Assembly: GCF_900100695.1 (NCBI RefSeq)
Contig: NZ_FNCF01000002.1
Coordinates: forward strand, 124,001-188,000
DNA length: 64,000 nt
Reading direction: 5' to 3'
DNA from: Klenkia brasiliensis
GTDB lineage: Bacteria; Actinomycetota; Actinomycetes; Mycobacteriales; Geodermatophilaceae
The translations under genes and the position numbers were made by a program. How positions within the stretch are numbered: the first letter of the stretch is position 1; each line of letters opens with the position of its first letter. The notes below the pieces were generated by a model. The model worked only from the letters and a program-made list of their open reading frames with translations, ran no database searches and was not told the DNA's origin. Positions 47,476 to 64,000 of this stretch are shown here, piece after piece.

Positions 47476-47498
47476 GCGGGCATCCTGCCCCGGACGCA

Positions 47499-47535: not shown

Positions 47536-47545
47536 CGGTGACGCG

Positions 47546-49549: not shown

Positions 49550-49627
49550 CGATGACCTTCTTCTCGAGAGGGCGCAGCCGGGGCGAGAGCCCGCGGACGG
49601 CGGTGGATCGGATCGTAGGCACAGTCT

Positions 49628-49641
49628 GTGACAGCTGTCAC
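49628..49641. promoter_or_regulatory. Palindrome upstream of the PTS gene
   Basis: GTGACAGCTGTCAC, a perfect 14-bp palindrome about 79 bp upstream of the PTS ATG. A second palindrome, TTGTACAA, lies at 49658-49665 in AGTTTGTACAAGCC. Both are in the 258-bp divergent gap and are candidate operators for a sugar-alcohol regulator, which is not in this window. Confidence 0.45.
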
Positions 49642-49807
49642 GGATCTGCGTTTGAGTTTGTACAAGCCGTTTCGGGCCCGGTCAAGGGGTCCGGGCCGAA
49701 CGAGTCGGGCCGACCCGGGGCCCGGATGCGTACGATCCGATGCGAGGAGCCCCGTCACTACAGTGATCGCGGGCACATCCGCGCGATCGCACCCCTGTGG
49801 AGGACAC

Positions 49808-50866
49808 ATGAAGGCCCTGCGTTTCTACGCCCCGGAGGACGTCCGCCTCGAGGACGTGCCGGAGCCGGAGTGCGGTCCGCGCGAGGTGAAGATCAAGGTG
49901 CGCAACTGCTCGACCTGCGGCACCGACGTCAAGATCTTCCACAACGGGCACCAGAACCTCAGCCCGCCGCGCACCATCGGGCACGAGATCGCCGGCGAGG
50001 TCGTCGAGGTCGGCGCCGAGGTGGAGAGCGCCTTCGGCGCCAGCTGGGCCCCGGGCGACCGGGTGCAGGTCATCGCCGCCGTGCCGTGCGGGGAGTGCCA
50101 CGAGTGCCGCAAGGGCTGGATGGCCGTCTGCGAGAACCAGACCTCCGTCGGCTACCAGTACGACGGCGGCTTCGCCGAGTACATGGTCGTGCCCGAGCAG
50201 GTGCTCAAGGTCGACGGTCTCAACCGCATCCCCGAGGGCGTCGGCTTCGACGAGGCCTCGGCCGCGGAGCCCTTCGCCTGCGCCATCAACGCCCAGGAGC
50301 TGCTCGGCATCGAGGAGGGCGACACCCTCGTCGTCTTCGGCGCCGGCCCGATCGGCTGCATGCACATCCGCATCGCCCGCGGCGTGCACAAGGTGGGCAA
50401 GGTCTTCCTCGTGGACGTCAACGCCGAGCGGCTGCAGATGAGCGCCGACGCCGTGCAGCCCGACGAGGTCATCAACGGCGCCGAGGTCGACGTCGTCGAG
50501 CGGGTCATGGAGCTGACCGGCGGCCGCGGCGCCGACGTCGTCATCACCGCCACCGCCGCGAACGTCACCCAGGAGCAGGCCATCGCGATGGCCGCCCGCA
50601 ACGGCCGGATCTCCTTCTTCGGCGGGCTGCCCAAGACCAACCCGACGATCACCTGCGACTCCAACGTGGTGCACTACCGGCAGCTGCACATCCACGGCGC
50701 CAACGGCTCGGCCCCCGAGCACAACAAGCGGGCGCTGGAGTACATCGCCTCCGGGCAGGTGCCGGTCAAGGACCTCATCACCGAGCGCATCCCGCTGGAG
50801 CGTGCGCTGGAGGCCTTCGACATCGTCAAGAGCGGCAAGGCCATCAAGGTCACCGTCGAACCCTGA
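49808..50866 (+). CDS. Zinc-dependent polyol(-phosphate)-type dehydrogenase
   Basis: Medium-chain dehydrogenase of the sorbitol/galactitol-phosphate group, 352 aa. Catalytic zinc motif CSTCGTDVKIFHNGH and GHEIAGEVVEVG; structural zinc Cys in CGECHECRKGWMAVC; Rossmann FGAGPIGCMHIRIARG. ATG 49808 with GGAGGA upstream. Being divergent from the mannitol-type PTS gene, it likely oxidises the imported polyol phosphate (or a related polyol), which is inference. A palindrome-like TCACT-AC-AGTGA (49755-49766) lies upstream. Confidence 0.85.
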   Translation: MKALRFYAPEDVRLEDVPEPECGPREVKIKVRNCSTCGTDVKIFHNGHQNLSPPRTIGHEIAGEVVEVGAEVESAFGASWAPGDRVQVIAAVPCGECHECRKGWMAVCENQTSVGYQYDGGFAEYMVVPEQVLKVDGLNRIPEGVGFDEASAAEPFACAINAQELLGIEEGDTLVVFGAGPIGCMHIRIARGVHKVGKVFLVDVNAERLQMSADAVQPDEVINGAEVDVVERVMELTGGRGADVVITATAANVTQEQAIAMAARNGRISFFGGLPKTNPTITCDSNVVHYRQLHIHGANGSAPEHNKRALEYIASGQVPVKDLITERIPLERALEAFDIVKSGKAIKVTVEP

Positions 50867-50874
50867 GCCACCCG

Positions 50875-50912
50875 CGACGGGGCCCCGGGTGCGTGCACCC
50901 GGGGCCCCGTCG
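50875..50912. terminator. Bidirectional terminator
   Basis: Perfect 18-bp stem CGACGGGGCCCCGGGTGC with a 2-base loop, located between the convergent dehydrogenase (stop 50866) and flavin monooxygenase (stop 50918) genes. Confidence 0.85.
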
Positions 50913-50917
50913 TCGTC

Positions 50918-52117
50918 TCAGTGCCGGATGCCGGCCTGCTGCATGAGCGGCAGGATGTCGCTCTCGAACACGTCGAGCTCCTGCACCGGGTCGATCAGGC
51001 CCATGATCATGCCGTCCATGCCGGCCTGGTTGAGCTTCACCAGCTCCTCGGTGACCTGCTCCGGGGTGCCGACGATCGGGTAGCCGCCCCACCCGGCGAT
51101 GAAGCGCTCCTGGTACTCCTTGACCACGTGGTCGAAGGACTGCGACGCGCCCGAGCCGGCGATCTTGATGACGTTGCCGGCGGCGCCCCAGTCGCCCTCG
51201 TCGATCACGTTCTGGAAGGCGGCCTTGGCCTCGGCCTCGGTGTCGCGGCAGACGATGAGCCCGTAGGTCATGGTCTGGATGTCGCGCTGGTGCTCGGTGC
51301 GGGCCTTCTCCTTCAGCGTCGAGGTGTAGGTCTGCACGTTCTCCAGGGTGTCCAGCGAGGCGAAGTTGACGTCGACGTTGCGGGCGGAGAACTCGATGCC
51401 GGCCTTGGAGTTGCCCGCGTTGATCAGCGCCGGCCGGGGCCCCTGGACGGGCTTCGGGTAGGCCTCGACGTCCATGCCGTTGAAGTACTTCCCGTCGACG
51501 TCGAAGCTGCCCTCCTCGGTCCACAGCTTGACCGCGTAGTCGATCCACTCCTGGCCGAAGGCGTAGCGCTCGTCGTGCTCGCGCTGCTCCCGGCCGAACA
51601 TCTCCATCTCCGGGGTCACCCAGCCCATGACCAGGTTGAGCACGAACCGCCCGCCCGAGATGTGGTCGATGGTCATGGCCTGCTTGGCCGAGACGATCGG
51701 GTGCATGGTCGGCAGGTGCGAGGTCGCGGCGATCGCGATGTTCTCGGTCGCCTCGGCCAGCCCCGCGGCCCAGGTGTAGGTCTCGAAGCAGTTGCCGTTG
51801 AAGTTGGTCGAGCCGCCGAAGCCCTTCCAGCGCGCGACCGGCACCATCGCCTCGAAGCCCAGCCGGTCGGCCTTCTGCGCGATCGCCTTGGTGTGCTCCC
51901 AGGTGATCTCGTAGCTGCTGGCCGCGTGGCTCATGATCAGCCCGTAGGAGCAGTTGGTGCCGAACAGGCCCAGCTTCATGCCCTGGTCGTTGAACAGCGG
52001 GTTGGTCGTGGTGCGGTCCGCGCGCGGCTGGGTCTCGGCCGGCGGACGCGGGTCGGTGGGGGCCAGGTCCAGACGCTCGTTGGCGCGCTGGGTGGGACGG
52101 TCGTCGGTGGTCGTCAC
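50918..52117 (-). CDS. RutA-like flavin-dependent monooxygenase (LLM class)
   Basis: Luciferase-like flavin monooxygenase, 399 aa, of the RutA type (relatives use a flavin-N5-peroxide to attack amide, sulfone or aryl-halide carbons). Marks: ALINAGNSKAGIEFSARN, ISGGRFVLNLVMGWVTPEM and RWKGFGGSTNFNGNCFE. It needs reduced FMN from a partner, present at 53531-54013. GTG 52117 with GAGGAG upstream; residues 1-45 are a Pro/Thr-rich extension. It lies after ribBA with a 154-bp gap that has its own likely -10 (TAGCGT on the minus strand, near 52180-52185). Substrate is unknown. Confidence 0.85.
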   Translation of the reverse strand: MTTTDDRPTQRANERLDLAPTDPRPPAETQPRADRTTTNPLFNDQGMKLGLFGTNCSYGLIMSHAASSYEITWEHTKAIAQKADRLGFEAMVPVARWKGFGGSTNFNGNCFETYTWAAGLAEATENIAIAATSHLPTMHPIVSAKQAMTIDHISGGRFVLNLVMGWVTPEMEMFGREQREHDERYAFGQEWIDYAVKLWTEEGSFDVDGKYFNGMDVEAYPKPVQGPRPALINAGNSKAGIEFSARNVDVNFASLDTLENVQTYTSTLKEKARTEHQRDIQTMTYGLIVCRDTEAEAKAAFQNVIDEGDWGAAGNVIKIAGSGASQSFDHVVKEYQERFIAGWGGYPIVGTPEQVTEELVKLNQAGMDGMIMGLIDPVQELDVFESDILPLMQQAGIRH

Positions 52118-52271
52118 GCGGGGCTCCTCGGCAGGTCGGCGGGCCGGGCGCGGTGTGCGCTGGGCCACGTTCAGCACCGACGCTAGGAGCCGTGGGCGGC
52201 GCCGGACAGCCGCCCAGCGCACCCGCCTGACCGTTCGCCGCAGACCTCGCGACGGTCCCCTGACCTGCGCG

Positions 52272-53534
52272 TCAGGTGCCGGCGACGGGCAGGTCGACGA
52301 CGGCGGACAGCCCGGGCGCCGGCGCCCCCGCGTGGCCCATCCGCTCCCGCTTCGTGCGGAGGTAGCGGAGGTTGTGCGGGGTCTCCACGGTGGGCAGGTG
52401 GACCCGGCCGGTGATGGTGAGGCCGTAGCCCTCCAGGCCGCCGTACTTGGCCGGGTTGTTGGTGATCAACCGGATCCGGGTGGCGCCGAGGTCACCGAGG
52501 ATCTGCGCGCCGACGCCGTAGGAGCGGGAGTCCACCGGCAGGCCCTGGGCGGTGTTGGCGTCCACGGTGTCCAGGCCCTGCTCCTGCAGGGCGTAGGCGC
52601 GGATCTTGTGGCCCAGGCCGATGCCGCGGCCCTCGTGGCCGCGCAGGTAGACCACCGCACCGGTGCCCTCGGCGGCGATGGTGGCCAGGGCGGTCTCCAG
52701 CTGGCTGCCGCAGTCGCAGCGCAGCGAGCCCAGGATGTCCCCGGTCAGGCACTCCGAGTGCACCCGCACCAGCGCGCCGGCACCGGTGCGCGAGGCCGCG
52801 GCCAGGTCGCCCATGACCAGCGCGAGGTGCTCGGTGCCGTCGAGGGTGCTGCGGTAGGCCAGGGCCCGGAACTCGCCGAACTCGGTGGGCATCTGCGCGG
52901 ACCCGACCAGCTCGACGAGGGTCTCGGTGGCCCGGCGGTGCCGCACCAGGTCCGCGATCGCCAGCACCGGCAACCCGTGCTCGGTGGCGAACGCCGTCAG
53001 GGAGGCCCCGGCGCGCATGGACCCGTCCTCGTCGACGACCTCCCCGATCACCCCGACCCCGGACAGGCCCGCCATCCGGGTGAGGTCGACGGCGGCCTCG
53101 GTGTGCCCGGCGCGCACCAGCACCCCGCCCTCCCGGGCGATGAGCGGGAACACGTGCCCCGGACGCCGGAACTCCTCCGCCGGCGCGGAGGTCAGCGAGC
53201 GGACGGTGAGCGCCCGGTCGGCCGCCGACACCCCGGTGGAGGTGCCGAGGTGGTCCACGGTGACGGTGAACGCCGTCCCGTGGGCGTCGGTGTTGTCGGT
53301 GACCATCAGCGGCAGCTGCAGCTCGCGGGCCCGTGCGGCGGGCATGGGCGCGCAGACGATGCCGGTCGTGTGCCGGACGACGAAGGCCATCTGCTCAGGG
53401 GTGCACAGCTCGGCGGCGACGACGAGGTCGCCCTCGTTCTCCCGGTCCTCGTCGTCGACCACCACGACCATGCCGCCGGCGGCGAGCGCGGCGACGGCGG
53501 TCTGCACGGCCTCGGTGGGGGTCCTGCGGGTCAT
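52272..53534 (-). CDS. ribBA: Bifunctional RibBA: DHBP synthase / GTP cyclohydrolase II
   Basis: Makes the two precursors of riboflavin, 420 aa. The N-terminal DHBP synthase domain has VDDEDRENEGDLVVAAE and HTTGIVCAPM; the C-terminal cyclohydrolase domain has VHSECLTGDILGSLRCDCG with the zinc Cys, and YLRGHEGRGIGLGHKI. ATG 53534 overlaps the flavin reductase stop by 4 bp. No FMN riboswitch is seen upstream. The rest of the riboflavin pathway is not nearby, so this copy appears dedicated to the flavin-dependent cluster, an inference from context. Confidence 0.92.
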   Translation of the reverse strand: MTRRTPTEAVQTAVAALAAGGMVVVVDDEDRENEGDLVVAAELCTPEQMAFVVRHTTGIVCAPMPAARARELQLPLMVTDNTDAHGTAFTVTVDHLGTSTGVSAADRALTVRSLTSAPAEEFRRPGHVFPLIAREGGVLVRAGHTEAAVDLTRMAGLSGVGVIGEVVDEDGSMRAGASLTAFATEHGLPVLAIADLVRHRRATETLVELVGSAQMPTEFGEFRALAYRSTLDGTEHLALVMGDLAAASRTGAGALVRVHSECLTGDILGSLRCDCGSQLETALATIAAEGTGAVVYLRGHEGRGIGLGHKIRAYALQEQGLDTVDANTAQGLPVDSRSYGVGAQILGDLGATRIRLITNNPAKYGGLEGYGLTITGRVHLPTVETPHNLRYLRTKRERMGHAGAPAPGLSAVVDLPVAGT

Positions 53535-54013
53535 GCGGTCACCTCGAGGGCCGTGTGGGTGCCGAACACCCGGGAGTGGTAGGTCAGCGGCTGTCCGTCG
53601 ACGGTGGCCGCGGCCCGGACGAGGCCGAGGGCGACGACGTGGTCACCGCCCTCGACCAGGGACTCCACGTCGCAGGCCAGCCACCCGGGTGCGCCGGGCA
53701 GGCGGGGCAGGCCGGAGTCGGGCACCCAGTCGACGGCGGCGAACTTGTCCGGGCCCTTGCGGGCGAAGGACAGCGCCAGCGCCGACTGGGTGGAGCCGAG
53801 GACGTTCACGCCGAACCGGCCGGTGTCCCGGACCAGGGCCAGCAGGTCCGAGCCGCGGTCCAGGGAGACCAGCACCATCGGCGGGTCCATCGACAGCGAC
53901 GCGAACGCCGACACCGTCGTCCCGTGCGGGACGCCGTCGGCCGACACCGCGGTGATGACCGAGACCGGGGTGGCGACCCCGGCCATCACCTCGCGGAACG
54001 CCTCCGCCAGCAC
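53531..54013 (-). CDS. Flavin reductase family protein (FMN-binding split barrel)
   Basis: Small NAD(P)H:flavin reductase of the HpaC/RutF/DIM6 family, 160 aa. The start AFREVMAGVATPVSVITAVS, DGVPHGTTVSAFASLSMDPP and PMVLVSLDRGSDLL are family signatures, with the usual CDVESLVEGGDHVVALG late segment. It would supply reduced FMN or FAD to the RutA-like monooxygenase. GTG 54013 lies 3 bp after the aldehyde dehydrogenase stop, and its own stop overlaps the ribBA start by 4 bp. Confidence 0.85.
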   Translation of the reverse strand: MLAEAFREVMAGVATPVSVITAVSADGVPHGTTVSAFASLSMDPPMVLVSLDRGSDLLALVRDTGRFGVNVLGSTQSALALSFARKGPDKFAAVDWVPDSGLPRLPGAPGWLACDVESLVEGGDHVVALGLVRAAATVDGQPLTYHSRVFGTHTALEVTA

Positions 54014-54016
54014 GGG

Positions 54017-55507
54017 TCAGCCCAGCTGGAACGGGTCGCGGGTCCCGCCGGTCAGCTCGATGAACACCGACTTGTTCTCGGTGTACTCGTTGACCGCGTC
54101 GACGCCGTTCTCCCGGCCGATGCCGGAGTTGCCGAAGCCGCCGAAGGGCATGTTCGGGGCGACCACCCGGTAGGCGTTCACCCAGACCGTGCCGGCCCGC
54201 AGCTTGGCCGCGACCCGGTGGGCGCGGTGCACGTCCTTGGTCCACACCGCCCCGGCCAGGCCGTAGGGGGTGTCGTTGGCCAGCTTGAGCGCCTCGTCCT
54301 CGTCGGTGAAGGTGTAGGCGGCCAGCACCGGGCCGAAGACCTCCTCGCGGACGATGGTGTTCTCCGGGGTCACGTTGGTGACCACGGTCGGCTTGACGAA
54401 CAGCCCACCGAGCTCGGCGGCCGGCTCGCCGCCGCAGGCGAAGGTGGCGCCCTCGGCCGCGGCGCCCTCGAGGTAGCCGAGCACCTTCTCGTACTGCGGC
54501 CGGTTGGCCACCGGGCCCATCTCGGTGTCGGCGTCGTTGGGGTCGCCGAGCACGATCTCGTTGGCCCGGGCGGCGATCTTCTCGACCAGGGCGTCGTGCA
54601 CGTCGGCGTGCACGATCAGCCGGGAGCCGGCCATGCAGGTCTGCCCGGTGGCCGCGAAGACACCGGCGACCAGGCCGTTGGCGGCGGCGTCGAGGTCGGC
54701 GTCGGGGAAGACGATCTGCGGGCTCTTGCCGCCCAGCTCGAGGGTGACCCGGTTGAGGTTGCTCACCGCGGCCCGGGCGACGGCGGCACCGGTGGCGGTG
54801 GAGCCGGTGAAGGCGACCTTGTCCACGCCCTGGTGCGACGCCAGCGCCTCACCGGTGGAGCGGTCCCAGCCGGTGACCACGTTGAGCACGCCCGCGGGCA
54901 GCCCGGCCTCGTGGAGCACCTGGGCGAAGGCGACGGTGGAGGCGGGGGAGTGCTCGGAGGGCTTGACCACGCAGGTGTTGCCGGCGGCCAGCAGCGGGGC
55001 GAGCTTGAAGGTCAGGAGCAGCAGCGGGGAGTTCCACGGCGTGATGGCGCCGACGACGCCGACCGGCTCGCGCACGGTGTAGCCGAAGTAGTTCGGGTTG
55101 ACCGGCGGGACGGTGCGGCCCTCGATCTTGTCGGCCAGCCCGGCGAAGTAGTAGTACCAGTTCGGCAGCCCCTTGAGCTGGCCGAGCATCTCGCGCATCA
55201 GCTTGCCGGAGTCGTTGACCTCGAGCTGGGCCAGCCGCTCGGCGTTGGCGAGGATCGCGTCCCCGCACTTCCGCATGATCGCGCTGCGCTGGAACCCGGT
55301 CATCTGCCCCCACTCGCCCTCGAAGGCGGTGCGGGCCGAGGCCACGGCCTCGTCGACGTCCTCGGGGGCGCCGTCGGCGAGCACCGCCCAGGCCTGGCCG
55401 GTGTAGGGGTTCTGCGACTCGAAGGTCTTGCCCGAGCGGGCGTCGACGGTCTTGCCGCCGATGAACAGCCCGAAGGACTCGAGCTCGGTGGACGTCGCGG
55501 TCGTCAT
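54017..55507 (-). CDS. Aldehyde dehydrogenase
   Basis: NAD(P)-dependent aldehyde dehydrogenase, 496 aa. Catalytic Cys in FAATGQTCMAGSRLIV, catalytic Glu in VTLELGGKSPQIVF, cofactor loop FTGSTATGAAVARAA, and C-terminal PFGGFGNSGIGRENG. Close to hydroxymuconic-semialdehyde or betaine-aldehyde types by eye, but the substrate is not resolved. ATG 55507 with AGAAGGAG upstream. First gene of the aldehyde dehydrogenase-flavin reductase-ribBA unit; a 38-bp element shared with the CoA-transferase unit lies 61 bp upstream. Confidence 0.9.
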   Translation of the reverse strand: MTTATSTELESFGLFIGGKTVDARSGKTFESQNPYTGQAWAVLADGAPEDVDEAVASARTAFEGEWGQMTGFQRSAIMRKCGDAILANAERLAQLEVNDSGKLMREMLGQLKGLPNWYYYFAGLADKIEGRTVPPVNPNYFGYTVREPVGVVGAITPWNSPLLLLTFKLAPLLAAGNTCVVKPSEHSPASTVAFAQVLHEAGLPAGVLNVVTGWDRSTGEALASHQGVDKVAFTGSTATGAAVARAAVSNLNRVTLELGGKSPQIVFPDADLDAAANGLVAGVFAATGQTCMAGSRLIVHADVHDALVEKIAARANEIVLGDPNDADTEMGPVANRPQYEKVLGYLEGAAAEGATFACGGEPAAELGGLFVKPTVVTNVTPENTIVREEVFGPVLAAYTFTDEDEALKLANDTPYGLAGAVWTKDVHRAHRVAAKLRAGTVWVNAYRVVAPNMPFGGFGNSGIGRENGVDAVNEYTENKSVFIELTGGTRDPFQLG

Positions 55508-55568
55508 CGACTGCTCCTTCTCGGTGTGGTGCCGGTCACGGCAACGGTAGGGAGGCGTGCGGGTCGGC

Positions 55569-55606
55569 GACCATCCGTTGTCCGCCGACCTGTGTCCGCA
55601 GAGCGC
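55569..55606. promoter_or_regulatory. Shared 38-bp element, copy A (upstream of aldehyde dehydrogenase)
   Basis: Reads GACCATCCG-N8-CGACCTG-TG-TCCGCAGAGCGC on the plus strand. The same elements in the same spacing occur at 58319-58356. It lies 61 bp before the aldehyde dehydrogenase ATG, abutting the stop codon of the FMN reductase gene, upstream of a possible -10 (TACCGT on the minus strand near 55542-55547). Position fits an activator site. Confidence 0.65.
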
Positions 55607-56139
55607 TAGACCTGCGGGTGCAGTGCGCGGATGGCCGCCGACCCCTGGACGGCGCGGGTCAGGTCGACCAGCGCGCGGCCGTGGGCGGCGGCCAGCTCGG
55701 CGGCGTCGGCGGTCAGGCCGTCGCCGTCGAAGTGCGGGTGGGAGAGCACCAGGCCCGGGCTGAGCACCTGGCAGCCGTAGAACCCGGCGAGCAGGCTGCG
55801 CAGCGAGTCCTGCGCCAGGAAGTGCTCCGGGGCGTTGTTGGTCATCACGATCGCGGCCGTGGTGCCGGCCAGGTGCGCCGTCGTCTCGGTCGTGTACCGG
55901 CCGCGCTCGGCGTTCTCGAACAGGCTGCGCAGCAGGGCCGAGAACGACGCCCGGTAGGTGGGGCTGCCGAAGACGACGGCGTCGGCGGCCTCCACCGCGT
56001 CGAGCACGGTCGCCACGTCGGTGTCGGCCAGGCTCAGCTTGATCACCTCGGCGCCCGCGCAGCCGGCCAGGATGCCCGCCACCCCCGCGTCGGTGCGGCC
56101 GCCCACCGACGGGCTGCCGACGACCCCGACGACCTTCAC
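55606..56139 (-). CDS. NADPH-dependent FMN reductase-like flavodoxin protein
   Basis: Flavodoxin-fold reductase of the SsuE/ArsH type, 177 aa. The phosphate loop GSPSVGGRTDAG follows the first strand VVGVVG, and the FGSPTYRASFSALLRSLFE and IVMTNNAPEHFLAQDSL segments are typical. It would reduce FMN with NAD(P)H; with the split-barrel reductase it gives the cluster two kinds of flavin reductase. GTG 56139 overlaps the lyase stop codon (GTGA). Stop is TAG at 55606-55608, next to element copy A. Confidence 0.85.
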   Translation of the reverse strand: MKVVGVVGSPSVGGRTDAGVAGILAGCAGAEVIKLSLADTDVATVLDAVEAADAVVFGSPTYRASFSALLRSLFENAERGRYTTETTAHLAGTTAAIVMTNNAPEHFLAQDSLRSLLAGFYGCQVLSPGLVLSHPHFDGDGLTADAAELAAAHGRALVDLTRAVQGSAAIRALHPQV

Positions 56140-57056
56140 GGGCGGAACTCCCCGCGCGGCCTGCTGGCCCCGCCGGCCCGGTACAGCGAGCTGGGCAGCG
56201 GGTGCTCCACCGCCCGCTCGGTGACGGCGGCCGCGGCGAGCACGAGGTCCAGGTCGATGCCGGTCTCCACCCCGGAGTCGTCGAGCCAGTAGACGAGCTC
56301 CTCGGTGGCGATGTTGCCGCTGGCGCCCGGGGCGAACGGGCAGCCGCCGAGGCCGCCGACCGACGCGTCGAGCTGGGTGACCCCGGCCAGGACGGCGGCC
56401 AGCGCGTTGGCCTGGCCGGTGCCGCGCGTGTCGTGGAAGTGCGCGCCCAGCGGCAGGCCGGGTGCCGCCGCGCGGACGGCTTCGAGCAGGTCGACGGTGC
56501 GCCGCGGGGTGACCGTGCCGATCGTGTCGCCCAGGCAGAGCTGGTCGGCGCCGGCGGCGACCGCGGTGGCGACGACGTCCAGGGTGCGGGACGGATCGGT
56601 CCGTCCGTCGAACGGGCAGTCCCAGGCGGTCGCGATGATCACCTCGAGCGAGCCGCCGGCGGCGTGCGAGACCTCGGCGATGGCGCCGATCGCCTCGGCG
56701 GCCTCGGACGTGGGCCGGCCGGCGTTGGCCCGGGAGTGCGAGTCGGCGGCGCTGACCACGTACTCCAGGTGCGGGATGCCGGCGTCCACCGCGCGCTGCG
56801 CCCCGCGCAGGTTGGCCACCAGCGCGGAGAAGTGCACGCCCTCGTACCGGCCCAGCGCCGCCGCGACCTGGTCGGCGTCGGCCAGCGCCGGGACCGCCTT
56901 CGGGGAGACGAAGGAGGTCACCTCGATGCGCTGCACGCCGGTGGCGACCAGTGCCTCGAGCATCTCCAGCTTGGCCTCCAGCGGGACCGGGTCCTCCAGC
57001 TGCAGGCCGTCGCGCATGCCGACCTCGCGGACGTCGACCCTGGGTGGCAGCTGCAC
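56136..57056 (-). CDS. Hydroxymethylglutaryl-CoA lyase-like enzyme
   Basis: TIM-barrel lyase of the DRE/HMG-CoA lyase family, 306 aa. VREVGMRDGLQLEDP carries the catalytic Arg-Asp, GAHFHDTRGTGQANAL the metal-binding His pair, and GGLGGCPFAPGASGNIATEEL the catalytic Cys loop. The reaction would be cleavage of a 3-hydroxy-3-methyl or similar acyl-CoA into acetyl-CoA and a ketoacid; the exact acyl group is not known. GTG 57056 lies next to the CoA-transferase stop with no gap. Confidence 0.88.
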   Translation of the reverse strand: MQLPPRVDVREVGMRDGLQLEDPVPLEAKLEMLEALVATGVQRIEVTSFVSPKAVPALADADQVAAALGRYEGVHFSALVANLRGAQRAVDAGIPHLEYVVSAADSHSRANAGRPTSEAAEAIGAIAEVSHAAGGSLEVIIATAWDCPFDGRTDPSRTLDVVATAVAAGADQLCLGDTIGTVTPRRTVDLLEAVRAAAPGLPLGAHFHDTRGTGQANALAAVLAGVTQLDASVGGLGGCPFAPGASGNIATEELVYWLDDSGVETGIDLDLVLAAAAVTERAVEHPLPSSLYRAGGASRPRGEFRP

Positions 57057-58259
57057 TCAGATCACCCCTTCGGCGGCCAGTGCCGCCACGTCGGACTCGG
57101 TGAGGCCCAGCAGCTCGCCGTAGACCTCGGTGTTGTGCCACCCCGGCCTCGGCGGCCCGGCCCACTTCACCGCCCCGGGCGTGGCCGACAGCTGCGGCGT
57201 CACGCCCGGGCCGAGCACGTCGGCGTCCACCCCGAGGTCGTGGTGGTCCACCAGCATGCCCCGCGCCAGGAACTGCTCGTCGACCGCGACGTCGGCGACC
57301 GTCGCCACCGGGCCGACGACGACGCCGGCGCCGCTGCAGCGGGCCACCACCTCCTCGGGCGGGAGCTGCACCGCCCAGGCGCCGATGAGGTCGTCGAGCT
57401 CGTCCTGGTGCCGGGCGCGGGCGGTGTGCGTGGCGTAGCGCTCGTCGTCGGCGAGCTCGGGGCGCCCCATCGCGGCGCACAGCCGCCGGAACAGGGTGTC
57501 CTGGTTGGCCGCGATGATCACGAACGTGCCGTCGGCGGTCCGGTAGCTGTTGGACGGGGCGATCGCGTCCAGCCGGGTGCCGCTGGGCTGGCGCACCAGC
57601 CCGGCGCGGGAGTAGTCCGGGACCATCGACTCGGTCACCGCCAGGCAGGAGTCGGTGAGCGCGGCGTCGACCACCTGGCCCTGCCCGGTGCGGGCGCGGG
57701 CGACCAGCGCGGTGAGGATGCCCTGGCAGGCGAACATCCCGGCCAGCGAGTCGCCGATCGACAGCGCCATCCGCACCGGCGGCTGGCCGGGGAAGCCGGT
57801 GACGAACCGCAGCCCGGCTCGGGCCTCCGCGACGCTGGCGTAGCCGGGCTGGGCGGCCATCGGCCCGGTCTGGCCGTAGCCGGAGACCCGGGCCAGCACC
57901 AGGCCGGGGTTGGCCGCGGCCAGCCGGTCGTACCCCAGGCCCCAGCGCTCCATGGTGCCCGGGCGGAAGCTCTCCACCACGACGTCGGCGTCGGCGGCCA
58001 GGGCCAGGAACAGCTCCTGCCCCCGCTCGCCGCGCAGGTCCAGGGTGATGCAGCGCTTGTTGCGGGCGTGCACGGTCCAGAAGAAGCCGCGACCGTCCTC
58101 GTGGGCCTGGCCCCAGGTGCGCAGCGGGTCGGGCCGGTCGGGGGCCTCGACCTTGATGACGTCGGCGCCCTGGTCACCCAGCAGCCGCCCGGCGAACGGG
58201 CCGGCGATGAGGGTGCCGATCTCCAGCACGCGGATGCCCTCGAGCGCTCCGGCGGTCAT
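57057..58259 (-). CDS. CaiB/BaiF family CoA-transferase
   Basis: Class III CoA-transferase, 400 aa, moving CoA between acids. Family marks: GIRVLEIGTLIAGPFAGRLL near the start, GADVIKVEAPDRPDPLR, NKRCITLDLRGERGQE, FRPGTMERWGLGY and the Asp of ALTDSCLAVTE. It probably activates the acid that the HMG-CoA-lyase-like enzyme then cleaves. ATG 58259 has GGAGGAG upstream. First gene of the cluster; element copy B is 59 bp upstream. Confidence 0.9.
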   Translation of the reverse strand: MTAGALEGIRVLEIGTLIAGPFAGRLLGDQGADVIKVEAPDRPDPLRTWGQAHEDGRGFFWTVHARNKRCITLDLRGERGQELFLALAADADVVVESFRPGTMERWGLGYDRLAAANPGLVLARVSGYGQTGPMAAQPGYASVAEARAGLRFVTGFPGQPPVRMALSIGDSLAGMFACQGILTALVARARTGQGQVVDAALTDSCLAVTESMVPDYSRAGLVRQPSGTRLDAIAPSNSYRTADGTFVIIAANQDTLFRRLCAAMGRPELADDERYATHTARARHQDELDDLIGAWAVQLPPEEVVARCSGAGVVVGPVATVADVAVDEQFLARGMLVDHHDLGVDADVLGPGVTPQLSATPGAVKWAGPPRPGWHNTEVYGELLGLTESDVAALAAEGVI

Positions 58260-58318
58260 GCGGCTCCTCCACGTCGTCGTGCGGGACGGCCCGACGCTAG
58301 GGGCGCGGCGGGACCCGG

Positions 58319-58356
58319 GACCATCCGCGCCCGGCGGACCTGCATCCGCAGAGCGC
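58319..58356. promoter_or_regulatory. Shared 38-bp element, copy B (upstream of CoA-transferase)
   Basis: Reads GACCATCCG-N8-GGACCTG-CA-TCCGCAGAGCGC, matching copy A at 55569-55606 apart from the 8-base spacer and a few bases. It starts 59 bp upstream of the ATG and upstream of a possible -10 (TAGCGT on the minus strand, 58294-58299). Confidence 0.65.
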
Positions 58357-58450
58357 ACGCATCGCCGGGCCCTCTGGACCCGACATGCGTTGCGCCCTAC
58401 CTTTCCCCGTGACGCCGGGCACCGCAGCCCGGCCGGACGACGGGAGCACC

Positions 58451-58972
58451 ATGTCCGACATCGTCGAGACGCAGACGCGGATCGCCGACCGCACCCTGAC
58501 CGCCGTCGAGGAGCTGCTGCGCAGCATCGACGACGGCGACCTGCACGTGGCCGACCCCGGTGGCGGGTGGACCGGCGCCACGGTGGTCAGCCACATGACC
58601 CTGGCCGGGCTGCTGTGGGTGGCCGACATCGCCCGCCTGCAGGCCGACCCCGAGCTGGACTTCTTCTACCGGGAGGAGATCGGCCACGACACGATCGGGG
58701 CGATCCCGCCGACCGCGGCCGAGGCCGCGGACAAGATCGCCTCGCTGCGCCGGACGATGGTCACGACGCTGCCGATGCACACCCCGGAGATCCTCGAGCG
58801 GTCGGTGGAGATCACCACGCTGGGGCGGATGACCGTGGCCGAGTGGCTGCCCATCGTGGTCGGCCACGTGGTGCACCACCGCGACCAGCTGCACGCCGTC
58901 CTCGCCTCGCGCGGCAAGCTGCCCGAGCGGTTCGTCGTGCCCGAGGGCCACACCGGCGAGGACGCCGCGTGA
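58451..58972 (+). CDS. DinB-like four-helix-bundle protein
   Basis: Soluble 173-aa protein with the DinB/YfiT-type four-helix bundle pattern. The metal-ligand His residues fit VVSHMTLAGLLW and VVGHVVHHRDQLHAVL. Relatives include mycothiol-dependent S-transferases and isomerases in actinobacteria. ATG 58451; an upstream in-frame ATG adds residues of unlikely coding quality. It overlaps the following alcohol dehydrogenase by 4 bp (GTGA), so the two proteins likely act together. Confidence 0.75.
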   Translation: MSDIVETQTRIADRTLTAVEELLRSIDDGDLHVADPGGGWTGATVVSHMTLAGLLWVADIARLQADPELDFFYREEIGHDTIGAIPPTAAEAADKIASLRRTMVTTLPMHTPEILERSVEITTLGRMTVAEWLPIVVGHVVHHRDQLHAVLASRGKLPERFVVPEGHTGEDAA

Positions 58973-59988
58973 AGGCGGTCGTCCTCGCCGGCGTCGGCCA
59001 GGTCGAGGTCCAGGAGCGCCCGGACCCCACCGCCGACCCGCTGCACGTGGTGGTGCACGTCGACGTCGCCTCGCTGTGCGGCACCGACGCGCACCAGTTC
59101 GAGGGCCGCATCGACTCACCGTTCCCGCGGGTGCCCGGCCACGACTTCGCCGGCACCGTCGTCTCGGTGGGCGAGGGCGTGGACGAGTCGCTGGTCGGCC
59201 AGCAGTTCGCGGTCAAGCCGTCCCTGCCGTGCGGGGTCTGCGCGGCCTGCGTCGACGGGCCCTCGCTGGACTGCCCGAACAAGAAGCTCATCGGGCTGTG
59301 GAGCGACGGCTGCTTCGCCGAGCTGGTCGCCGTCCCGCGGGTGAACCTGGTGCCCATCCCCGACGGTGTGCCGATCTGGGGCGCGGCCCTGCTGGAGCCC
59401 TTCGCCGTCGCGCTGAACTGCATCGACCGGCTGCAGATCAAGCTCGGCGACTCGGTGCTGGTGCTCGGCCAGGGCCCGATCGGGCTGGCCGTGGCGCGGT
59501 TCGCGGCGCTCTCGGGCGCCGGCCGGCTGACCGTCACCGACGTCCGCGAGGAGGTCTTCGAGGTCTCCCGGGCGTTCGGGGCCACCGACTGCCTGGACAG
59601 CCGCACCGACGGCCTGGTGGACCGGGTGCTGGAGATGCACGGCGGGCGCGGGGCGGACATCGTCGTGGAGACCTCGGGTGCGCCCGCGGCGTCGGCGTCG
59701 GTGATCGACCTGGTGCGCAAGGAGGGCAAGGCGAGCTTCATCGGCTACGCCAACGACCTCCCGGGCATCCCCGTCGTCCCGATGATGCTCAAGACCGCGA
59801 CGGTGTTCGGGGTCGGCGGCAACGGCGGCCGCGGGCAGTACGAGCGGTCCCTGGAGCTCATCCGGGCCGGCCGGGTGGACCTGAGCCCGCTGGTCACGCA
59901 CCGGTTCTCCCTGGACGACGCCCCGGAGGCCTTCGAGGTCGCCAGCACCAAGCGGGACGGCGCCATCAAGGTCCTCCTGGAGCCCTGA
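58969..59988 (+). CDS. Zinc-binding medium-chain dehydrogenase
   Basis: Medium-chain dehydrogenase/reductase, 339 aa, of the threonine/sorbitol dehydrogenase style. Catalytic zinc motif LCGTDAHQFEG with GHDFAGTVV; structural zinc Cys in CGVCAACVDGPSLDC; Rossmann LGQGPIGLAVARFAA. GTG 58969 overlaps the DinB-like gene stop. The adjacent catabolic cluster is divergent, so a role in the same pathway is possible but unproven. A strong hairpin follows at 60007-60066. Confidence 0.85.
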   Translation: MKAVVLAGVGQVEVQERPDPTADPLHVVVHVDVASLCGTDAHQFEGRIDSPFPRVPGHDFAGTVVSVGEGVDESLVGQQFAVKPSLPCGVCAACVDGPSLDCPNKKLIGLWSDGCFAELVAVPRVNLVPIPDGVPIWGAALLEPFAVALNCIDRLQIKLGDSVLVLGQGPIGLAVARFAALSGAGRLTVTDVREEVFEVSRAFGATDCLDSRTDGLVDRVLEMHGGRGADIVVETSGAPAASASVIDLVRKEGKASFIGYANDLPGIPVVPMMLKTATVFGVGGNGGRGQYERSLELIRAGRVDLSPLVTHRFSLDDAPEAFEVASTKRDGAIKVLLEP

Positions 59989-60006
59989 CCCCCCGGCCCC
60001 CCTCGG

Positions 60007-60066
60007 GGTGCCGGAAGCTCCACCCCACCCGTCGAGCCGGAGGGGTGGGGTGGAGCTCCCGGTACC
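60007..60066. terminator. Bidirectional terminator
   Basis: Arms of 21 bp pair with two mismatches (core AGCTCCACCCCA against TGGGGTGGAGCT), between the convergent dehydrogenase (stop 59988) and SCO6745-like gene (stop 60075). Confidence 0.8.
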
Positions 60067-60074
60067 GGGGTGGG

Positions 60075-60989
60075 TCAGCCGCTGACGCGCTTGTACGGGT
60101 CCGACGGCGCCGCGCCGGCGGCGACGATGCGGTTGCTCCAGCCGTCCAGCTGCGCGGTCAGCGCCTCGATGTCGTCGCTGATCGGGGCCAGCACCCGGGT
60201 CATCGCCTCGTCGGTGACCTGCTCGATGCGGTCGCGCTCGGCCCGGCCGGTGCCGGTCAGCTCGCCGTCGGCCAGCCAGCCGCGCTCGCGCAGGTCGGCG
60301 TCGGCGGCGTCCATGACCTCCGGGGCCCAGGCGCGGGTGCCGGCGTAGGCGCGGGGCTCCCAGCCGATCCAGTACTCGGTCACCAGGTTCATCTGCACGC
60401 CCGAGAGCCCCGCGGCGACGTTGGCCGCCTGGTGGGTGTCGCCGCGGTACTCGCGCAGGATGTTCAGCGCGTGCCACAGCTGGCCCCACGGGTCGGTCGG
60501 CCACTCCAGCGACGCCAGGCCCGCCACCAGCGGCCGGCCGGTGACGTCGGCGACGGCCACGTCGGTGGCCCGGCGCAGCTGCGCGACGGCGGTCTCGACC
60601 TCACCGGTCGGGACGTCGCCGAGCACCTCGTGCAGCGAGTCCACCGCGCCCTTCTCCCGGGCGGCCAGCACGTCCTCCCGCGAGGCGATCCCGCGGGCCT
60701 GGTCGTACAGGGAGGCGATCAGCCCGGGCTCGAACACCCCGAAGGCGGCGACGACGACCGGTGGGGTGGGCTCGCCCATCGGCGCGGTGCGGCCCCACAC
60801 GTAGCCGGTGAGGAACTCCAGGCCCAGGGCCTCCATCGCGGCGTAGGCGGGCTTGCCCCAGAAGCCGATGGTGGCCAGCGGCTCGGCGGCGTCGCGCAGC
60901 GACCGGGCGGCCCCGGTGGGGATGCGCGGGGCGGGCCGGCCGGCGGAGGGCTCGGCGAGGAAGGCGGCCGACAGTTCGTCGTAGTCCAC
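60075..60989 (-). CDS. SCO6745 family helical protein
   Basis: Helical soluble protein, 304 aa, similar to the SCO6745 family of actinobacteria. The block GLEFLTGYVWGRTAPMG followed by PPVVVAAFGVFEPGLIASL is the recognisable core; the C-terminal half has ERDRIEQVTDEAMTRVLAPI with a long helix. Function unknown; some annotate the C-terminal part as helix-turn-helix-like. It lies 16 bp downstream of the AraC-type regulator on the same strand, so it may be its target. ATG 60989. Confidence 0.6.
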   Translation of the reverse strand: MDYDELSAAFLAEPSAGRPAPRIPTGAARSLRDAAEPLATIGFWGKPAYAAMEALGLEFLTGYVWGRTAPMGEPTPPVVVAAFGVFEPGLIASLYDQARGIASREDVLAAREKGAVDSLHEVLGDVPTGEVETAVAQLRRATDVAVADVTGRPLVAGLASLEWPTDPWGQLWHALNILREYRGDTHQAANVAAGLSGVQMNLVTEYWIGWEPRAYAGTRAWAPEVMDAADADLRERGWLADGELTGTGRAERDRIEQVTDEAMTRVLAPISDDIEALTAQLDGWSNRIVAAGAAPSDPYKRVSG

Positions 60990-61005
60990 GAGGGAGTCTC
61001 CCGGG

Positions 61006-61983
61006 TCAGTGGCGGAGGGTGGCGGACGGGAGCTCGCCGAAGCGGTCCCGGTACTGCTGGGCGAAGCGGCTCTGGTGGAAGAAGCCCCAGCGGACGGCGA
61101 CGTCGGTGACCCGCACGGTCGTGGGGTCGGCGTGCACGAGCTCGCCCCGCACCCGGTCCAGCCGGACCCGGCGCAGGTAGCTCATGGGGGACTCGCCGTA
61201 CTGCTGCTGGAAGGCCGCGTGCAGGGTGCGCACGCTCATGCAGCCCACCCGGGCCAGCTGCTGCGGGGTGAGCGCCTCGTCGGCGTGCTCCTCGAGGAAG
61301 GCGACCACCGGGGCGAGCCGGCCGTGCTCGAGGGCCCGGGCGGGGGCGGCGAGGGCGTCGGAGAACTGGTGCCGACCGGCGTGCAGCAGCTGGGTCATCA
61401 CGAACGCCTCGAGCTGCTCGCGGGCCAGCGGCATCTCGGCCAGCCCGCCGGGCCGGTCCAGCTCACGGGCGAGGAACTCCACCGAGTTCAGCAGCGACTG
61501 CCCGGCCGGCGCCGTGAGGTCCAGGCCGAAGTCGAAGTCGACCACGTCGGCGACCGACCGGCCGATGAGGTCGCCCAGGTGCGACTCCAGGCTGGCCCGG
61601 GGGATCTTGAGGATCAGCTGCTCGGCGTCGGGCGTCCAGCGCACCGTGTTGCGCTGCTTGGGGTTGAGCACCGCCCCGGACACCCGCGCCACGGTGCGGG
61701 TACGTGCGCCGTCGGACCGGTCGGCATCGGTGCTGCCCGCGGTGGTGAGGTTGACGTGGTAGCAGTCCTCGGTGGGCGGCATGACCAGCTCGGTCTGCGC
61801 ACCGTAGGTCAGGTAGCCGAGGGTGAAGTTCCGGTCGGTGACGGCGTTGAGCTGCATCGCCACCTGGTCTTCCCGCGCGGTGAGGTCGTGCTGCAGGTAG
61901 ACCCGGGTGACGGCGTCCTGCGCCTCCTCGAGGCTGCGCGTGCCGACCACGGGGAACCTCGACAGGGGCTGGCCCACGGTCAC
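61006..61983 (-). CDS. AraC family transcriptional regulator
   Basis: Regulator with an N-terminal sensor domain (about 1-210, AraC-binding-like type with strand motifs FTLGYLTYGAQTELVMPP) and a C-terminal double helix-turn-helix (about 225-325): LTPQQLARVGCMSVRTLHAAF, SPMSYLRRVRLDRVR and VTDVAVRWGFFHQSRFAQQY. It likely activates the SCO6745-like gene downstream and/or the divergent transketolase-like gene at 62167. ATG 61983. The 183-bp divergent gap includes the palindrome GTCGTGCACGAC (62045-62056). Confidence 0.85.
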   Translation of the reverse strand: MTVGQPLSRFPVVGTRSLEEAQDAVTRVYLQHDLTAREDQVAMQLNAVTDRNFTLGYLTYGAQTELVMPPTEDCYHVNLTTAGSTDADRSDGARTRTVARVSGAVLNPKQRNTVRWTPDAEQLILKIPRASLESHLGDLIGRSVADVVDFDFGLDLTAPAGQSLLNSVEFLARELDRPGGLAEMPLAREQLEAFVMTQLLHAGRHQFSDALAAPARALEHGRLAPVVAFLEEHADEALTPQQLARVGCMSVRTLHAAFQQQYGESPMSYLRRVRLDRVRGELVHADPTTVRVTDVAVRWGFFHQSRFAQQYRDRFGELPSATLRH

Positions 61984-62056: not shown

Positions 62057-62166
62057 ACGAACGCCAGCCGATCAGTGCGCAGGGGCGTCCGCGCAGCGCA
62101 CGGGGCGGCTGCCGGGCTGCACCACGCGGCTGGCCGGGGGCCCGGACGGTCGGTCAAGCTGGGTGC

Positions 62167-64000
62167 ATGACCGCCACCCTCGGCAACGCTGCCGGCACCA
62201 GCACCGACGACGCCGCCCTCCGCGAGGTCGAGCAGCGGGTGCTCTGGCTGGCCAGCGCGATCGTCGACCACGCCAACCGGGTGCGGCCCAACCCGACCGG
62301 GCTCAAGGTGGGCGGCCACCAGGCGTCGTCGGCCTCGATCACCACGATCATGACCGCGCTGTGGCTGGAGACCCTGGGCCCGGAGGACCGGGTGTCGGTC
62401 AAGCCGCACGCCTCGCCGGTGCTGCACGCGCTGGAGTACCTGCTCGGCCAGCTGCCGGCGTCGGCGCTGACCACGCTGCGGGAGTTCGGCGGCCTGCAGT
62501 CCTACCCCTCGCGCCTGAAGGACCCGGTGCCGGCGGACTACTCCACCGGCTCGGTCGGCATCGGGGCCACCGCGCCGATCTGGGGCGCGATCGCCCGCCG
62601 CTACGTCAACACCCAGTTCGGCACCGGGGGTGCCGGCCGGCAGTGGTCGCTGGTGGGGGACGCCGAGCTCGACGAGGGCGCGGTGTGGGAGGCCGTGGTC
62701 GACCCGATGGTGGCCGAGCTGGGCGAGGTCTGCTGGGTCGTCGACCTCAACCGGCAGTCCCTGGACCGGGTGGTGCCGACCTTCGGGGCGACCCGGCTGC
62801 AGGGCATGTTCGCCGCGGCCGGCTGGCAGGTGCTCACCGTGAAGTACGGCGCGCTGCTGGAGGAGCTCTACACCCGCGAGGGCGGCCCCGAGCTGCGCGA
62901 CCGGATCGACGAGATGACCAACCCCGAGTACCAGCGGATGCTGCGCCGCTCGGCCGCCGAGCTGCGCGAGCACCTGCCCGGGGACGGCGCCGGGGCGGCC
63001 GCGATCGCCGGCCTGATCGCCGGGGTGGGCGACGAGGACCTGGTCGCCGCGGTGCGCAACCTCGGCGGGCACGACCTGGCGGCGCTGCGGACGGCGTTCG
63101 CCCAGATCGACGACACCCGCCCCACCGTCGTGCTGGCGTACACGCTCAAGGGCTACCGCCTGGCCATCGAGGGCCACCCGCAGAACCACTCCGCGCTGCT
63201 GACCGAGGCCCAGCTGCACGAGCTGGCCGACCGCGTGGGCGTGGACCCGGCCGACCCCTGGACCCGCTTCGACCCCGCCTCCGGCCCCGGCCGGCTGCTC
63301 GCCGCGGCCGCCGACCGGCTGCGCCGCACCCCGCACCAGGGCGCGCCGGCTCCCTCGGTCCCGGGCGACCTGGGCCGGACGCCGAACGGCACCGGCACCA
63401 CGCAGGCCGCGCTGGGCCGCACGCTGCTCGACCTCAACCGGGCCGCGCCCGAGGCCGGGGCGCGGGTCGTCACGGTCAGCCCCGACGTCTCCAGCTCCAC
63501 CAACCTGGGCGGCTGGGTCAACAAGGTCGGCGTCTGGGCGGCCGAGGACCGGCGCGACTGGTTCTCCGACGACCCCGAGACGATCCTGCACTGGCGGGAG
63601 CGGCCCAGCGGCCAGCACGTGGAGCTCGGCATCGCCGAGGTCAACCTGGTCGGGCTGATGGGCGAGCTGGGCGCGACGTGGAGCCGCTGGGAGCAGCCGC
63701 TGCTGCCGATCGGCGTCATGTACGACCCGTTCGTCTCCCGGGCGCTGGAGCCGTGGAGCTTCGGGGTCTACGCCGGGGGCCAGTCGATCCTGGTCGGCAC
63801 GCCGTCGGGGGTGACGCTGGCCGCCGAGGGCGGGGCGCACCAGTCGATCACCACGCCCTCCATCGGCCTGGAGCAGCCCGGCGTCGTCACCTACGAGCCG
63901 GCGTTCGCGCTGGACACCGAGTGGTGCCTGCTCGCCTCGCTGGGCCGGCTGGGCAAGCCCGGTGGCACCAGCGCCTACCTGCGGCTGTCGACCCGGCCGG
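62167..64000 (+). CDS. Transketolase/AceE-like thiamine-diphosphate enzyme, 3'-truncated
   Basis: Thiamine-diphosphate-dependent E1-type enzyme running off the window edge (611 codons seen without a stop). Visible features of the homodimeric pyruvate dehydrogenase E1/transketolase fold: PTGLKVGGHQASSAS near residue 45, the TPP motif VGDAELDEGAVWEAV...VDLNRQSL (about 162-198), GIAEVNLVGLMGELG (Glu equivalent, about 485), and YDPFVSRALEPWSFG. The segment PHASPVLHALEYLL resembles AceE. Its pathway is not clear because the dihydrolipoyl subunits are not nearby. ATG 62167; no other start fits better. Confidence 0.8.
   Translation, partial: MTATLGNAAGTSTDDAALREVEQRVLWLASAIVDHANRVRPNPTGLKVGGHQASSASITTIMTALWLETLGPEDRVSVKPHASPVLHALEYLLGQLPASALTTLREFGGLQSYPSRLKDPVPADYSTGSVGIGATAPIWGAIARRYVNTQFGTGGAGRQWSLVGDAELDEGAVWEAVVDPMVAELGEVCWVVDLNRQSLDRVVPTFGATRLQGMFAAAGWQVLTVKYGALLEELYTREGGPELRDRIDEMTNPEYQRMLRRSAAELREHLPGDGAGAAAIAGLIAGVGDEDLVAAVRNLGGHDLAALRTAFAQIDDTRPTVVLAYTLKGYRLAIEGHPQNHSALLTEAQLHELADRVGVDPADPWTRFDPASGPGRLLAAAADRLRRTPHQGAPAPSVPGDLGRTPNGTGTTQAALGRTLLDLNRAAPEAGARVVTVSPDVSSSTNLGGWVNKVGVWAAEDRRDWFSDDPETILHWRERPSGQHVELGIAEVNLVGLMGELGATWSRWEQPLLPIGVMYDPFVSRALEPWSFGVYAGGQSILVGTPSGVTLAAEGGAHQSITTPSIGLEQPGVVTYEPAFALDTEWCLLASLGRLGKPGGTSAYLRLSTRP

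Follow-up and report, generated by a model that had tools for sequence, protein, structure and literature searches.

The window analysed here, a 64,000-nucleotide stretch of the Klenkia brasiliensis genome (assembly GCF_900100695.1, contig NZ_FNCF01000002.1, positions 124,001 to 188,000), carries a catabolic gene set built around LLM1, a luciferase-like monooxygenase (LLM) related to RutA. The set is very probably a conserved regulon under AraC-family control with a dedicated flavin supply, its co-expression being predicted from shared operators. The parts are familiar, and the set would be a variant of two-component flavin catabolism, which is already known in kind. A literature search, from which most subscription papers were out of reach, found no description of the gene combination, its control, or its substrate. 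The result is a precise proposed regulon, with its regulator, operator, promoters, and genes, for an orphan catabolic pathway that occurs in nine or more actinobacterial genera. The genes in question are as follows.

50918..52117, minus strand: LLM1, RutA/SfnG-like two-component monooxygenase of the luciferase family (PF00296; start moved from 52222)
52272..53534, minus strand: RibBA, predicted cluster-specific lineage of 3,4-dihydroxy-2-butanone 4-phosphate (DHBP) synthase/GTP cyclohydrolase II (profiles and tree)
53531..54013, minus strand: split-barrel flavin reductase (PF01613; HsaB/StyB-like but below their cut-offs)
54017..55507, minus strand: aldehyde dehydrogenase (ALDH; PF00171), adjacent to LLM in 35 of 35 loci
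55606..56139, minus strand: flavodoxin-fold FMN reductase-like protein (PF03358, 52 bits against a cut-off of 24; MsuE/SsuE-like, far below those cut-offs)
56136..57056, minus strand: HMGL, of the 3-hydroxy-3-methylglutaryl (HMG)-CoA lyase family (NF004283, 286 bits against a cut-off of 246)
57057..58259, minus strand: CaiB, class III CoA-transferase (CoA_transf_3, PF02515; start moved from 58358)
60075..60989, minus strand: HTH_67 family protein, starting 16 bp downstream of the AraC gene
61006..61983, minus strand: AraC-family regulator (PF14525 and HTH_18)
62146..64000, continuing to about 64491 beyond the window end, plus strand: divergent pyruvate dehydrogenase E1 (PDH-E1, AceE)-like enzyme of the thiamine diphosphate type (PDH_E1_M and transketolase domains)

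The first seven genes, at 50918-58356, had been described in a first-pass annotation as a flavin-centred catabolic cluster whose junctions mostly overlap or nearly touch. All seven open reading frames exist, and Pfam and NCBIfam profiles agree with the families named there. Two of the starts were probably too long: LLM1 more likely begins at 52117 (GTG), near where its homologues begin, and CaiB probably at 58259 (ATG after a GGAGG-like site). With the corrected starts, the junctions read in the direction from CaiB to LLM1 are 0, -4, +98, +3, -4, and +154 bp; four of the six overlap or touch, and two are true gaps. Because of the gaps of 98 and 154 bp, the linked set is likely three transcription units rather than one operon: CaiB-HMGL-FMN reductase, ALDH-flavin reductase-RibBA, and LLM1. 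The earlier limits also missed three members of the set, namely the AraC regulator, the PDH-E1-like enzyme, and LLM2, a second LLM that lies 0.6 kb beyond the window end (start at about 65766 in window coordinates) and is 60% identical to LLM1. The AraC protein is presumed to be the activator of the set. The HTH_67 gene is possibly co-transcribed with it; among the loci examined, only those of Klenkia and Modestobacter have this protein at 50% identity or above. No FMN riboswitch or other known RNA was found at E values up to 0.5 over 46000-64000.

Conservation of the set was assessed in 35 close LLM loci obtained by scanning a collection of genome contigs with the LLM. These are relatives of at least 65% identity, and hence a biased sample, from Klenkia, Modestobacter, Pseudonocardia, Streptomyces, Actinomycetospora, Mycolicibacterium, Mycobacterium, Nakamurella, Arthrobacter, and one unclassified metagenome-assembled genome (MAG). 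Within about 10 kb, and at thresholds of our own choosing (only 30% identity for the reductase), neighbours comprise ALDH in 35 loci, AraC in 31, flavin reductase in 24, RibBA in 20, HMGL in 20, and CaiB in 19, with FMN reductase (9), the PDH-E1 (AceE)-like gene (4), and a hydratase (3) being rarer. Eight of the 35 loci are incomplete at their ends, and L014 and L025 gave identical matches, so these counts are not independent trials. The pattern holds in the 30 loci outside Klenkia and Modestobacter (ALDH 30, AraC 29, reductase 19, RibBA 15, CaiB 15, HMGL 15). Neighbour counts of this kind argue that the association is not due to chance. The first-pass annotation had held that scattering of the homologues among relatives would speak against a cluster, and such scattering exists in part: AraC-ALDH-LLM is a near universal core, while RibBA, CaiB, and HMGL are nearby in slightly more than half of the loci. 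The order and strand of the genes vary between genera. The LLM itself is rare. A search of 60 genomes near the window at E<=1e-60 found it in 9 (some matches at only 37-41% identity), and one of 296 genomes drawn from the phylum at E<=1e-90 found it in 3, own genome included in both counts. LLM1 is 99% identical to the LLM of Klenkia taihuensis DSM 45962.

Shared control is predicted from a common operator. A two-block matrix was learned on the regions upstream of ALDH in 24 loci outside Klenkia and Modestobacter; the operator consists of two half-sites, about TGCACKSARCGG and TGCNGTCCGCGGATA, nine bases apart (ten in three loci). Among the training promoters, 23 of 24 score at least 24, the remaining one (L029) only 13.5. 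Sites were called above the 99th percentile of 4808 background windows. By this threshold, and leaving aside the promoters used for learning, a site precedes unit-leading genes for CaiB in 17 of 23 cases, reductase in 17 of 22, RibBA in 10 of 14, LLM in 11 of 21, AraC in 26 of 35, and the AceE-like gene in 3 of 7, a count that includes one Klenkia gene twice. Since the AraC and ALDH genes are often served by a single promoter region, their operator counts are not independent. Genes inside units had a site in none of 65 cases (LLM 0/19, HMGL 0/15, FMN reductase 0/10, RibBA 0/10, reductase 0/6, hydratase 0/3, ALDH 0/2). Leader status was assigned mechanically, and some called leaders are probably not true leaders; none of those called for HMGL (0/6), FMN reductase (0/1), or hydratase (0/1) had a site. 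The predicted operators of the window are listed below.

58322..58357, minus strand: before CaiB, score 17.7, the top site of the window
52187..52242, minus strand: before LLM1, one or two sites (52187-52221, score 14.1; 52207-52242, score 12.4)
55572..55607, minus strand: before ALDH, score 13.4
62065..62100, minus strand: before the AraC gene, score 12.2
62097..62132, plus strand: before the PDH-E1-like gene, score 9.5, the weakest

LLM2 has its own predicted operator (score 14.8). In Klenkia, then, a site stands before six of six unit starts (CaiB, LLM2, LLM1, ALDH, AraC, and AceE-like) and before none of ten other starts, all of which score below zero; the summed score of the six sites was matched by none of 300 column-shuffled matrices. 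A score of 9.5 was reached by 2 of 2417 random stretches. The window holds eight sites scoring at least 9, six of them before genes of the set. In simulated sequences of 64 kb, single scores rose to 16.2, and each of twenty such sequences gave 0-5 matches of at least 9; one weak site by itself is therefore no proof. Across 18 genomes of 4.5 to 10.2 Mb, the operator in a strict form matches 16 places, with 14 genomes having a match and 4 having none (reversed control 0). All 16 lie inside LLM clusters, where 11 lead ALDH and 5 lead RibBA, AraC, or reductase units. Nine of the 11 ALDH-leading matches belong to the training promoters and are matched by construction; the informative part is that no match lies elsewhere. 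A looser Klenkia form gave eight matches in its own genome, five of them in the set (by design), with two in the control. At the stringency of the strict form, the regulon appears to be self-contained, leaving no remote gene to betray the substrate.

RibBA extends this picture to flavin supply. The protein scores 592.3 bits against the NF006803 cut-off of 569, has both PF00926 and PF00925, and is encoded in a genome with three DHBP-synthase genes. We placed it in a tree of 37 sequences, mostly from the genomes of 16 loci (30 of 43 matches came with the loci; a length filter removed two short sequences), in which some outer branches are weak or long. A housekeeping clade (99/97, 16 sequences) gathers copies without set neighbours, one Klenkia copy included, and broadly tracks genus; one of its members (L046) comes from beside a distant LLM (38%). 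A cluster clade (100/99, 11 sequences) unites cluster copies from Klenkia, Modestobacter, Pseudonocardia, Actinomycetospora, and genome G057; nine of the 11 come from LLM clusters, and two (L064 and L088) from elsewhere. A third group (100/100) holds the mycobacterial cluster copies and the MAG copy, with 96/99 when a second copy from Pseudonocardia oceani is joined to it. By this phylogeny, the RibBA proteins of the clusters form a lineage separate from the housekeeping ones. P. oceani (genome G365) has seven RibBA-type matches, one of them in a second set of LLM (69%), reductase, RibBA, and short-chain dehydrogenase/reductase (SDR) genes (L076). The claim that the set has its own RibBA thus gains a separate lineage and predicted operators that tie RibBA to LLM; together, phylogeny and operators argue that flavin synthesis can be wired into a catabolic regulon instead of being left to housekeeping genes.

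The principle of a dedicated flavin gene in a catabolic cluster is known in outline from two precedents, of which the AraC-wired actinobacterial set is a variant. Rhodococcus sp. D-6 offers one in its ipp cluster, where the genes for oxygenase and reductase flank a RibB-type gene, all with the same tabulated value of 4.46, apparently log2 induction (PMC12442392, in the portion available); unlike the Klenkia set, ipp has an HsaA-type oxygenase and serves a phenol pathway. Plasmid clusters of Rhizobium, Variovorax, and Peribacillus combine an LLM of 43-50% identity and a flavin reductase with RibB, RibBA, or riboflavin kinase, and the Peribacillus cluster also has ALDH, CaiB, LeuCD, and HMGL. 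These clusters differ from the Klenkia set in having GntR or other regulators and SDR or lactonase genes, with no AraC annotated in the stretches shown. On the Peribacillus plasmid, an ArsC/Spx-like gene follows each of two LLM genes (L040:7500-7913 and 9230-9643; the two ArsC/Spx-like genes are 93% identical), and a third LLM, RibB, and riboflavin kinase lie close to those two LLM genes (L099).

Starting from the genes, their conserved association, and the shared two-half-site operator, we infer the rest of the mechanism. The set is, on balance, probably an inducible oxygenolytic catabolic regulon with one AraC-family activator, dedicated flavin supply, RutA-type oxygenases, and a CaiB/HMGL lower route. 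In the presence of substrate, AraC would turn on LLM1 and LLM2, the flavin reductase, and RibBA; the reductase would feed FMNH2 to both LLMs while RibBA raises the flavin supply. Through RutA-type chemistry, the LLMs would break a bond in the substrate oxidatively, and ALDH would oxidise the resulting aldehyde to an acid. In some relatives, this acid would be hydrated by a LeuCD/aconitase-type enzyme. CaiB would activate the acid, and the HMGL-family lyase would split the CoA ester into an acyl-CoA and an oxo-acid, which the PDH-E1-like enzyme may take further. As central intermediate, an alkyl-malate-type hydroxy-acid would be the likeliest. We tentatively suggest a small substituted heterocycle as substrate. 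Rather doubtful is a bolder form of the proposal, in which a common natural heterocycle is opened by the two related RutA-type oxygenases, working one after the other or together, to give an alkyl-maleate-type acid; hydration would follow, and then cleavage by an alkylmalyl-CoA lyase of the HMGL family. The set would then be a "flavin-autonomous" island under one AraC switch, re-assembled in several phyla, the cross-phylum cases coming from plasmid records.

The chemistry of the oxygenase is where two of the rival explanations arise. By profile, LLM1 falls between SfnG and RutA and is a member of neither: SfnG (TIGR04021) is its best NCBIfam match at 187.6 bits, far below the cut-off of 382.95, and RutA (TIGR03612) gives 171.3 bits against 498.3. 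SfnG, the dimethylsulfone monooxygenase, is also its best PDB match and the top structural match of the LLM1 model (pLDDT 74; Z 30.8, root-mean-square deviation 2.9, 310 aligned), 1.1 Z units over RutA (Z 29.7, deviation 2.9, 302 aligned, about 28% identity). These likenesses would suit a sulfone or sulfonate desulfurisation in which an SfnG relative cleaves a C-S bond and delivers an aldehyde to ALDH. We regard this as improbable, given the profile score, the Ala that SfnG has where RutA and the LLM orthologues have Thr105, and the absence of any sulfur-metabolism family among the seven genes (orthologue flanks were not systematically annotated). RutA residues Thr105, Asn134, Val136, Trp139, and Phe224 are kept in every LLM1 orthologue of at least 60% identity in the alignment; LLM2 has Leu at position 224. 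The pocket residues and their roles are taken from the accessible part of PMC7662398, Thr105 and Asn134 are the dioxygen-binding pair of RutA in that of PMC10005588, and the motif, in what is available of PMC8234197, is defined and not fully kept in SfnG. RutA-like chemistry is thus supported at the level of residues for O2 reactivity, as the first-pass annotation had supposed. LLM1 further has the features of a two-component (group C) flavin monooxygenase, a predicted luciferase-type TIM barrel and a separate reductase gene (24 of 35 loci). The residues, the fold, and the separate reductase are likewise what a variant Rut pathway for pyrimidines would offer, recalling RutA with RutF of Escherichia coli. 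That reading is scarcely credible: the reductase reaches 62 of 255 bits for RutF, Leu65 is replaced by Val, the downstream enzymes are others, and, as already claimed, no RutB, RutC, or RutD type gene was found among the seven by Pfam and NCBIfam profiles; nothing points to pyrimidines. To our knowledge, CaiB and HMGL have no role in the Rut pathway. Few RutA-type oxygenases have been characterised, and identification of the substrate would add one more.

For the lower route, the choice lies between an alkyl-malate-type acid cleaved as its CoA ester, which we hold at a little under even chances, and a genuine 3-hydroxy-3-methylglutarate route, which we consider unlikely. In the latter, an isoprenoid-like or branched compound would be oxidised to HMG; a SUGCT-like CoA-transferase would then activate it, and a true HMG-CoA lyase would release acetoacetate and acetyl-CoA. 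HMGL (PRK05692 family) passes the NCBIfam subfamily cut-off (286.4 bits against 246), is the sole match in its own genome at E<=1e-10, and, aligned to the human and Bacillus subtilis enzymes, has intact RDGLQ, HxHDT, GGCP, and GxSGN motifs, which we take to be catalytic. The nearest named relatives of CaiB are succinate--glutarate/HMG CoA-transferases; its two best PDB matches are an uncharacterised CaiB/BaiF protein and then succinate--hydroxymethylglutarate CoA-transferase 9br7. Against this route, CaiB is far below the succinate--glutarate CoA-transferase equivalog cut-off (NF052585, 260 bits against 750), and related sets include LeuCD/aconitase-type hydratases and a lyase of the isocitrate lyase/phosphoenolpyruvate mutase (ICL/PEPM) family, enzymes that suit alkyl-malates rather than HMG. 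Such hydratases stand beside the set in L027, L035, L036, L043, and the Peribacillus plasmid: a LeuCD pair in Arthrobacter and Peribacillus and an aconitase-like hydratase in Mycolicibacterium, L036, and L043, whereas the gain in Streptomyces and Klenkia is the AceE-like gene. A Variovorax plasmid has LLM, RibBA, and reductase together with LeuCD and the ICL/PEPM-family lyase. It is this recurrence of hydratase and C-C lyase with LLM genes that favours an alkyl-malate-type intermediate. Dimethylmaleate hydratase and dimethylmalate lyase are known enzymes of the alkyl-malate type, and the citramalyl-CoA lyase of itaconate and citramalate degradation belongs to a family other than HMGL. Cleavage of citramalate via its CoA ester is established in that route, which pairs a CoA-transferase with the lyase and, unlike the Klenkia set, has no oxygenase (PMC9875883, as far as its available text goes). 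The PDH-E1-like protein scores 186.4 bits for pyruvate dehydrogenase E1 (TIGR00759), well short of the cut-off of 859.9. Once the substrate is found, an HMGL-family lyase of new specificity could be revealed.

A number of observations weigh against the regulon and the lower route as proposed. Leaders lack a site in 4 of 14 cases for RibBA, 6 of 23 for CaiB, 5 of 22 for reductase, 10 of 21 for LLM, 9 of 35 for AraC, 4 of 7 for the AceE-like gene, and 2 of 37 for ALDH. Three Mycobacterium-group genomes have their closest HMGL-CaiB pair on another contig; of the two such loci scanned, L053 has no site and L055 has one inside the CaiB gene. L056 (Actinomycetospora), with HMGL, ALDH, and AceE-like genes, has none. 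The Klenkia AceE-like site is the weakest and lies just 13 bp before the assumed start, and two window sites of at least 9 precede no gene of the set (34345, score 11.2; and 58776, plus strand, score 10.7, inside the DinB-like gene). The published RutA motif is incomplete, with Val or Ile at Leu65 across the alignment. The catalytic motifs of HMGL cannot separate HMG-CoA from alkylmalyl-CoA. No dedicated hydratase lies beside the Klenkia set, and two aconitase-family matches (LeuC-like and Acn-like by length) are on other contigs, so that either the step is not needed or LeuCD of housekeeping metabolism would have to stand in. The best HMGL in 16 searched genomes is at least 54% identical in six, 46% in two, and only 40-44% in eight, on which account the CaiB/HMGL step is not obligatory. 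Finally, AraC and ALDH are the only partners in 8 of the 30 loci outside Klenkia and Modestobacter, and ALDH alone in one, as would be expected if AraC-ALDH-LLM were the only system and the reductase, RibBA, CaiB, and HMGL were neighbours from other pathways. We judge this very improbable, since the operator precedes RibBA, reductase, and CaiB units in many loci, its strict form occurs nowhere outside the clusters in the 18 genomes, and linkage is kept despite shuffled gene orders.

Among described pathways, the openings of the trigonelline (TgnAB/TgnC) and pyridine (PyrA/PyrE/PyrB) rings also use a luciferase-family oxygenase, a separate reductase, and then a dehydrogenase for the aldehyde; both systems include an amidohydrolase and a succinate-semialdehyde dehydrogenase. 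Compared by description only, the Klenkia set shares the oxygenase, reductase, and aldehyde dehydrogenase. It differs in that the seven genes include no amidohydrolase or second semialdehyde dehydrogenase, CaiB and HMGL being found instead, and ALDH falls below the succinate-semialdehyde dehydrogenase cut-offs. TgnB is placed in the luciferase family in the accessible part of PMC11354265.

The components also occur in other company. On a plasmid of Streptomyces sp. NBC_01450 (L100:3706-14930), genes for an AceE-like protein, an FAD hydroxylase, a VOC protein, an AMP-binding enzyme, CaiB, and HMGL form one row without LLM; with CaiB, HMGL, and the AceE-like gene joined there to these other enzymes, several substrates may share the lower route. 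In the stretch of a Ponticoccus plasmid that holds HMGL and CaiB, the two accompany a tripartite tricarboxylate transporter, and LLM is absent. Three plasmid regions with ALDH relatives, viewed out of 477 records (two Rhodococcus, one Rubrobacter), are all in other gene sets. In two Pseudonocardia loci (L017:15516-21163 and L037:8793-15261), genes resembling those of purine/ureide catabolism, recognised by eye only (allantoinase, allantoicase, glyoxylate carboligase, a DUF1116-like gene, and carbamate kinase), are neighbours of a core reduced to AraC-ALDH-LLM.

Neighbouring genes in Klenkia complete the survey. In both Klenkia and Modestobacter, the CaiB unit is separated from the HTH_67/AraC unit by a DinB-family gene and a zinc dehydrogenase (58451-59988 of the window, plus strand), with no operator before them. 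A phosphotransferase system (PTS) permease gene, named by eye, and a divergent threonine-dehydrogenase-like zinc dehydrogenase (47546-50866) flank the cluster and, judged by the operator, do not belong to the regulon. Co-regulation was considered for the DinB-like gene, both zinc dehydrogenases, the PTS gene, and a threonine-dehydratase-like gene (like the PTS gene, named by eye), all of which were left out of the set for want of an operator. Past the window end, 10 kb from the Klenkia set, lies another LLM-hydratase-lyase set without operator evidence (L042:13400-18085, about 74899-79584 in window coordinates): a minus-strand row of an FMN_red-family gene, MmgE/PrpD, an LLM (29% identical to LLM1), and a lyase of the phosphoenolpyruvate mutase/ICL family, facing a GntR-type gene identified by eye.

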